Source: Nocardioides jiangsuensis
Lineage (GTDB): Bacteria; Actinomycetota; Actinomycetes; Propionibacteriales; Nocardioidaceae
Reading direction: 5' to 3'
Assembly (NCBI RefSeq): GCF_019679455.1
Contig: NZ_JAIEZQ010000001.1
Coordinates: 186,001 to 250,000, forward strand
Length of the DNA stretch: 64,000 nt
The translations under genes were made by a program, and so were the position numbers. Below are positions 8,670 through 14,171 of the stretch, one piece after another. The notes under the pieces are model-generated. The model ran no database searches, had not been told where the DNA came from, and was given only the letters and a program-made list of their open reading frames with translations. Numbering within the stretch: position 1 is the stretch's first letter; every line of letters begins with the position of its first letter.

Positions 8670-11600
8670 TCAGCCCCGGTCGCCCTCGATCGCCGCGATG
8701 ATCCGGGGCCGCATCTCGCGGGCCTCGATCACGGCGTCCACCGAGCCGACCCGGACCGCGCGATGGATGTCGTGCACCGTGTCGAACTCGGAGGCGACCT
8801 CGCCGATCTTCTCGGCCCGCACCGTCGACCTGACCTCGGCGAGCTCACGGACCAGCCTCGCGCGCTCCACCCCGGTCGCCTCGGCGACCCGGGACTCCAG
8901 CTCCCGCACGCGGGGGTCGGCCGCCGTACGGGCGTCCACGTCCCGGGTGAACACCACAGCGGCCGCCGGGGCGCCGCCGATCACGGACGCGAAGGAGCCC
9001 TCGACGGCGAGCACCGTCATGCGGGGGTTGAGCGCCTTCGAGAAGACGACGAACGCCCCGCCGTGGTAGCGCGAGATGACGCAGAACACGATCGGACCGT
9101 CGAAGTTCACGATCGCCCGCCCGATCTCGGCGCCGAACTCCAGCTGCAGGTGCCGCATCGAGTCCGGGGAGCCGTCGAACCCGGAGAGGTTCGCCAGGAC
9201 CACCAGCGGGCGGTTCCCGCTGGCGGCGTTGATCGCCCGTGCGGCCTTCTTCGACGACCGCGGGAACAGCGTCCCCGCCGTGTACACGTCCGGACCGTCG
9301 GTGGGTGGGAAGCCCTGGCGCCGTACCGACCGCGACTCGATCCCGAGCAGGCAGACGGGCCACCCGCCGAGGTGCGCGTCCTGCACGACAGCGGTCTCCG
9401 CGTCGGCCATGTCCGCCCAGCGCTCGAGCGTGGGGTGGTCCTGGTCGGCCAGGGCCCGCATCACCGTGCGGATGTCGAAGGCCTTCTTCCGGTCGGGGTT
9501 GGTGGCCGGGGAGAAGATGTCGCCCACCGTGCGGAAGTCGCTGTCGGCCAGGTCGTGGGGGTACGTCGTCACGTCCCGGTCCGAGGGGTCGGACGTCGCG
9601 GCCCGTCGTGGGCCCTGCTCCCCGGGTACGACGTACGTGTGGTCGTAGTGCGCCATCAGCACGTCACGCGCCCCGGCCAGGTCGGGCGCCCAGTACTGCG
9701 CCTGCCCGTTCGGGCCCATCACCCGGGCGTACCCGCCGATGCCGAAGTTGTCCTCGGCCGAGACCCCGCCGGAGAAGTCCAGGGACTGCTTCCCGGTGAG
9801 CACCATGGCGCTGTCCGGGGTCATCACGAGGACACCCTTGGTGTGCATCAGCATGGTCGCCTCGGCGTTCCAGTACGGCTGCGCACCCACGTTGATGCCG
9901 GCGACCACGATGTTGACCTCGCCGCCGGCCTGGGTGAACTCGATGATCCGCTTGAGCGCGCGCGCCACCCAGTCCATGTTCTCCGTCCCGGAGTCCATGG
10001 AGATGCGGGCTCCCGCGGACAGCGCGTACCACTCCACCGGCACCCTCATCTGCTCCGCGAGGTCGAGGGCGGCGATGATCCGGGCGCACTCCGGCTCCGA
10101 GACGGCCCCCAGCGCCTTGAGCGGGTCGCCGCTCAGCACGACCCGGGTCACGCCCTCGGGATGGCGCTCGGTGGGGGTGCTCACCACGCCCGCGATGACG
10201 CCGGCCTTGTTGAGCCCGTGGGGCCGGTCCACCGCCACCAGCGCACCGGTGTCGTCGAGGTCGTGCTCCACGAACGTCCCGCCCTCGCCGGCCACCATGC
10301 CCTGCAGCTCGTAGGGGTAGACCGTGCCGCGGCGGCGGGCGCGGAGCACCTTCTGGGCGTACTCGTCGAGCGGCTTGAGCCGCTCCGTCGGGGGCTCCTC
10401 GATCGAGGTCACCACGCCGGACCCGGGGAGGCTGTGGAAGCGGGCGGCGATCGGGACGGGGCTGCCGTCCGGTCCGGCCACCAGACCCTGCGCCCGCACC
10501 TCCTCGATCCCTGCCCCCGCGGTCAGCGGGGTGATCTTCTGCTGCAGCGCCGTCAGCTGGTCCAGCTCCGCGTCGATGACCGGCCAGATCCGCACCCAGA
10601 CGTGGTTCATGTCGAGCTTGGTGCCGGCCGCCCCGCGCTCGGTGCGAGCCCGCCGGATCGCCTCGAGGCAGTTGGCCACGGCCCGCTCCGCGTGCGGCAG
10701 CGCGGTGACCTTGCCCTGCTCGTCGCGGACTACCGCGAGCTGCCGGACCTGGGCCAGCGCGACCAGCCGCCGGTCGGCGGGGTTGCCCTTGGCCACGCAG
10801 TCGTAGAGCAGGACGTCCTCGGGCGCCTCCAGCCGCGTGATGTCGAAGTCGCGCAGGCGCCACAGGTCGAGCCGCCGGCCGACCATCGGGTGCATGCCGC
10901 GCACCAGGTCGTCCTCGACGACGTCACCGTCGACCGGGCGGAACGTGAAGTAGGAGACCGGCCGGCCGGCCCCGGGGCAGACCGCCACCGCGACCCGTCG
11001 TACCTCGTGCGTGAAGGACAGCCGGCCCAGCAGCCGGCTGAGCTCCGCGGCCGTCTCCTCGGCTGACTCCGGGGCGTCGGACCATCCCAGGTAGAGGTCG
11101 AGAACGGCCTCCTGACCGGTCTCGCGGGCAGCCAGCTGCCCGGCCACCGCGGTGGCGAGCCCCTGCTCGGCACCGAGCTCCTCCACTGTCCCTACCGTGG
11201 ACACCAGGCGTGTCGGACGCTCGTCGAGGGTGTAGTCGGCGACCACGAACGGCCGGTCGTCCACCTGCACCGAGCGCAGGCCGTGCAGCTCGTGCTCCCG
11301 GTAGTGCCGCTTGACGAGCACCTCGAGCATCGGCTCGTGCCGGGGTACGCCGTGCTCCAGCCGCTCGGCCAGGAAGGACACGATCTGCTCGGGGATCGCG
11401 GCGAGGGCGTCGATCCGCTCCGCCCGGTCCGGCGCCTGCGGGTCCGCCGCGAGGGCGGCGACCTCGTCGCGGACACCGGCGAGGACACCGGCCCGCTCCT
11501 CGTCGACCAGGGGCTGGTCGAACCACCGGAACCGCACGCTGCGGGCCAGGTCGCCGACCACGGGGAAGCGCAGCTGGGTGGCGAGGGCCAGCCGGTCGAG

Positions 11601-14171: not shown

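Follow-up and report, generated by a model that had tools for sequence, protein, structure and literature searches.

The closest described relatives of the carboxylase considered here are the 'actinobacterial homodimeric ACCs', a family named by Livieri et al. in 2019, when SACE_4237 of Saccharopolyspora erythraea was characterised (PMC6491548). This enzyme is a single chain of ~200 kDa that includes a central region, is active as a dimer of ~400 kDa and accepts acetyl-CoA and propionyl-CoA but not palmitoyl-CoA (PMC6491548). It can complement an E. coli accB(ts) mutant. In S. erythraea, which lacks the usual essential carboxyltransferase (CT), the enzyme is essential, and its loss is rescued by oleic acid (PMC6491548). 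The CT of SACE_4237 falls in one clade with that of eukaryotic acetyl-CoA carboxylase (ACC), and orthologues were listed in Nocardioidaceae and other families (PMC6491548). The origin of eukaryotic ACC had been left open by Lombard and Moreira in 2011 (PMC3199775). In the later open literature on this family (subscription papers lay outside the search), neither a structure nor an account of its co-occurrence with AccD6 was found.

Several other carboxylases invite comparison. Eukaryotic cytosolic ACCs (yeast Acc1, Chaetomium ACC, human ACC1) are single chains of about 2200–2350 residues with the order biotin carboxylase (BC), biotin carboxyl carrier (BCCP), central domain and CT. The long-chain acyl-CoA carboxylase (LCC, 4rcn) is a bacterial one-chain enzyme too, but it forms a hexamer, has no central region and differs from SACE_4237 in the order of CT and BC-BCCP (PMC6491548). 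The AccADCB fusion of Shewanella (9kkm) is also one chain, of 1517 aa, with the order A-D-C-B by name and a C-terminal BC (aligned at 930-1419). The split actinobacterial ACC and PCC (AccD6, PccB/AccD5 with AccA) perform the same chemistry with homologous BC, BCCP and CT, but on separate subunits and without any central domain.

The window, a stretch of 64,000 nucleotides from Nocardioides jiangsuensis, carries a gene whose product adds one more member to the published actinobacterial homodimeric family. It resembles SACE_4237 in domain order, length (~200 kDa), protein start, central region and placement of its CT in the eukaryotic ACC clade. The reading frame comprises 1833 codons without internal stops, from an ATG at 14171 to a stop at 8670 on the minus strand. 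An alternative GTG located 69 bases upstream would give a protein of 1856 aa, but the ATG is favoured because it fits both the N-termini of the relatives, which align at MFSR- or MFKR-, and cloned SACE_4237, which begins ATGTTCAGTCGTG (MFSRV) according to the primer (PMC6491548). Full-length relatives are present in at least 80 other assemblies, and this multiplicity of independent relatives rules out a chance frame or a misassembled fusion. Proteins from Kribbella, Terrabacter, Nocardioides and Saccharopolyspora share 66–78% identity with it over their full length (68% for the Saccharopolyspora hirsuta homologue).

Features of the single-chain carboxylase gene in the window
Feature	Position	Strand	Description
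Single-chain acyl-CoA/acetyl-CoA carboxylase, orthologue family of SACE_4237	8670..14171	-	1833 aa + stop
Biotin carboxylase (BC) domain	12828..14171	-	residues 1-448; ATP-grasp and catalytic residues intact
Stretch between BC and BCCP	12408..12827	-	residues 449-588; assigned by position only
Biotin carboxyl carrier (BCCP) domain	12210..12407	-	residues 589-654, ESMKMETA
Central domain	10452..12209	-	residues 655-1240; homologous to eukaryotic ACC central domain as judged from sequence profiles and predicted fold
Carboxyltransferase (CT) domain, eukaryotic-ACC type	8673..10451	-	residues 1241-1833

No conserved operon was found around the gene among the loci of its relatives. The flanking genes do not recur, with the sole exception of a cysteinyl-tRNA-synthetase-like neighbour that recurs only in Nocardioides donggukensis (L036). 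In the window, this neighbour (7426-8628, minus strand) follows the carboxylase gene after 41 bases; its 400-aa product may be an MshC-type ligase.

The initial annotation had placed BC, BCCP, a central region of about 550 residues and CT in one 1833-residue chain in the eukaryotic order. The open frame and Pfam bear out this layout, except that the central region, although indeed large, is somewhat longer (~585 residues). Pfam recognises in turn the three domains of BC, a biotinyl domain, ACC_central (10536-11048; E 1.3e-15, score 57.2 for a cut-off of 23.2) and Carboxyl_trans (E 1.2e-32). NCBIfam yielded no whole-chain model, its best 25 matches being BC, biotin-carrier and ATP-grasp families that all remain under their cut-offs, and the only PHROGs hit, which covers the BC domain, is a family without assigned function. 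The BC catalytic residues K121, K163, H213, K242, E280, E294, N296, R298 and R371 are intact. They correspond to the residues known from E. coli BC. The predicted biotinyl residue is Lys 621 within ESMKMETA (codon 12309-12311). By its position, the stretch between BC and BCCP would occupy the place of the BT domain of eukaryotic ACC and PCC. The checked catalytic positions (BC residues and glycines of the CT motifs) are kept in all 98 correctly read relatives, i.e. a 100-protein alignment from which two wrong-frame rows (23% identity) were removed. These two rows, selected by length, seemed devoid of all catalytic residues and also produce a spurious long branch in a tree.

The central region is, as judged from sequence profiles and a predicted fold, a true homologue of the central domain of eukaryotic ACC. 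A profile built from the central regions of 30 relatives matched eukaryotic ACC chains of the PDB at E 3.6e-17 to 4e-12 (Chaetomium 3.6e-17, yeast 1.1e-14, human 2.8e-13) over positions 164-537 of 581; only two other PDB entries were matched, at E-values of 0.02 and 0.8, no better than chance. AlphaFold2 modelled residues 655-1241 with confidence (mean pLDDT 87.5, pTM 0.77), and a Foldseek search of the PDB with this model gave 28 hits with E under 0.001, the best at 1.5e-20; all are eukaryotic ACC and most align over the full length. Identity to eukaryotic ACC in this domain is about 15–18%. The TM-scores (~0.3–0.6, with a large rmsd over the full length) are low, as would be expected for a multi-domain arch with movable parts, and the AC3-AC5 part superposes on eukaryotic ACC at 5–6 A.

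The catalytic domains point to the same kinship. A CT profile of 26 relatives matches eukaryotic ACC at 5e-33, against 1e-10 for the best split bacterial CT. In the CT tree (maximum likelihood, mixture model), fungal ACC joins the family, and the two are separated from three split CTs of the same genome, namely AccD6, PccB and one more (100/100); fungal ACC lies outside all sampled actinobacterial chains (97/92). BC gives the same picture, with 98/94 for the grouping of the family with fungi and 99/95 for the position of fungi outside the sampled actinobacterial chains. In both trees, eukaryotes are represented by fungi, whose sequences are alignment fragments, outgroup rows are few and branches are very long, which may push the fungi outwards. 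With fungal ACC placed outside the actinobacterial diversity sampled, the trees indicate a shared ancestry of the family and eukaryotic ACC and not the direction of a transfer. Furthermore, two CT insertions seen in the alignment are common to the family and fungal ACC and missing from PccB and AccD6, and the BC of the window carries WVGWG, corresponding to a WxGWG motif common to the family and eukaryotic ACC, where four split BC domains of the same genome have HPGYG or YPGYG. The likeness to eukaryotic ACC pointed out in the initial annotation thus holds for domain order, central domain, CT and BC, and two of the checks that it had proposed, namely comparison of the central domain with yeast ACC and phylogeny of BC and CT, both came out in its favour.

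Taken together, these data make it very probable that the gene product is a homodimeric single-chain acyl-CoA carboxylase with a scaffold-type central domain. Its activity, dimerisation and substrate range are proposed by analogy with SACE_4237, and the reaction would proceed as follows. The BC domain would carboxylate the biotin carried by Lys 621, using ATP and bicarbonate, and the BCCP arm would bring carboxybiotin to CT within the dimer. With the carboxyl group so delivered, CT would then carboxylate acetyl-CoA, and probably propionyl-CoA too, giving malonyl-CoA, the unit from which fatty acids are built, or methylmalonyl-CoA, while the central domain would serve as a scaffold that keeps BC and CT in place.

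When the BC domain is searched by itself, its best scores are with ordinary bacterial BC (~380 bits, against ~240 bits, pieces summed, for the BC of yeast ACC). Such a result would suit an independent bacterial fusion, in which split alpha and beta subunits were joined by an unrelated helical linker and the likeness to eukaryotic ACC is convergent. However, this scenario accounts neither for a central domain homologous to that of eukaryotic ACC by sequence and fold, nor for the shared CT insertions and WxGWG motif, nor for trees of both CT and BC that join the family to fungal ACC; it appears highly improbable. Assignment to the LCC type, suggested by the fact that LCC is also a single-chain bacterial carboxylase, is even harder to credit, given the domain order, hexameric state and lack of central region of the latter, the large domain lying between BCCP and CT in the window chain and the inactivity of SACE_4237 on palmitoyl-CoA (PMC6491548). 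In addition, 4rcn is absent from the matches of the CT profile, although it scores against the split CTs of the same genome. As for the split carboxylases themselves, the CT of the window is neither on a chain of its own nor in the PccB/AccD6 clade. Both of these kinds are encoded elsewhere in the genome. Another locus of this genome (L127), considered as a candidate LCC, was rejected, as its CT and BC are read in separate frames and so make up a split pair.

The role of the enzyme in its host is a more evenly balanced matter. The genome encodes PccB and, beside a FabF-type ketosynthase, an AccD6 orthologue (G000:C3:573893-575326; L128, L131) that scores 650 bits with M. tuberculosis AccD6 against 390 with the next kind. 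These proteins could do the housekeeping ACC job, and the coexistence of AccD6 and the single-chain enzyme means that the essentiality of the latter cannot be assumed in this organism. The single-chain enzyme could then be accessory, serving for example methylmalonyl-CoA or a special lipid, with AccD6 and a separate alpha subunit making the malonyl-CoA for growth. The adjacency of AccD6 and FabF, the neighbourhood of the carboxylase gene, which is not conserved, and the presence of AccD6 in two of the three other sampled genomes of the genus, all three without the single-chain gene, are in favour of such a role, which has a substantial chance of being correct, if somewhat below even. On the other hand, in those genera of the family where carriers of the single-chain gene occur, AccD6 is present in all 20 non-carriers with nearly complete genomes but in only 8 of the 20 carriers, so that its loss (12/20 versus 0/20; Fisher p 4.5e-5, shared ancestry ignored) is confined to carriers, which implies that the single-chain enzyme can stand in for AccD6.

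The matches to AccD6 are bimodal over 40 carriers: 12 have an orthologue (58–100% identity) and 28 reach only the level of PccB (~45%). Among named carriers, AccD6 is found in 11 of 25 and missing in 14, including S. hirsuta, which belongs to the genus of SACE_4237 and in this respect differs from the genome studied here; its lack of AccD6 agrees with the published statement on S. erythraea (PMC6491548). Kribbella steppae and Nocardioides immobilis are further examples of carriers with both enzymes. This pattern suggests a replacement of AccD6 by the single-chain enzyme, the genome of the window being in a redundant state. In sampled members of two genera of the family (g2 and g219, e.g. G331 and G315), nearly complete genomes have neither AccD6 nor a single-chain ACC, except for the G400 variant described below; a further ACC must exist there.

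The single-chain gene is patchily distributed. Six peptide patterns retrieved more than 580 relatives from a species-level genome collection; the best 80 are actinobacterial by title, which, only the best having been kept, carries no information on other phyla. Among 296 genomes drawn evenly from the phylum, 21 are carriers, 12 of them outside the class of the window. Within its family, 29 of the 198 genomes are carriers, spread over 10 of 26 genera; this count includes a variant with a short central region and one fragment at a contig end. The whole-protein search, which guards against divergent members escaping Pfam ACC_central, raised these numbers only slightly relative to the latter alone, from 20 to 21 of 296 and from 27 to 29 of 198. 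At the level of the order, the CT of the family occurs in 125 of 295 genomes, and the gene was not found in the other three sampled genomes of the genus.

Reduced forms were also encountered. In a genome of the same family that lacks AccD6 (G314:C1), a 669-aa fusion of BCCP and a eukaryotic-type CT, devoid of BC and central domain (L138:7687-9693, +), is encoded immediately after the gene of a type I fatty acid synthase (L138:3-7208). The G400 variant (G400:C23, L134:2168-6859, +) is a single chain of 1564 aa whose shortened central region has no ACC_central match and no counterpart of residues 660-1029 of the window protein. Both variants fall among divergent family members in the CT tree, with weak support, so that a reduction is as likely as an ancestral simplicity. 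In each of two genomes from the same order, there is a second, shorter copy of 1344–1395 aa (L149:1297-5481, +, in G512:C1; L150:1129-5160, +, in G527:C292), which is probably unable to carboxylate biotin itself, since its BC lacks the ATP-grasp. It can be tentatively proposed that, in Nocardioidaceae, the single-chain ACC repeatedly displaces AccD6, with both present in the genome of the window, and that the reduced relatives are either stages through which the eukaryotic-type ACC was assembled or secondary reductions of it; this scenario is possible rather than probable.

The family bears on the source of eukaryotic ACC and of its central domain. This bearing was also claimed in the initial annotation; the kinship holds, but an actinobacterial origin of the eukaryotic enzyme had already been proposed in 2019 (PMC6491548). 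The present analysis adds a wider distribution, which extends to other class-level groups of the phylum, CT and BC trees that both place fungal ACC outside the actinobacterial enzymes sampled, the reduced variants found in relatives, and a pattern of replacement between the single-chain enzyme and AccD6.
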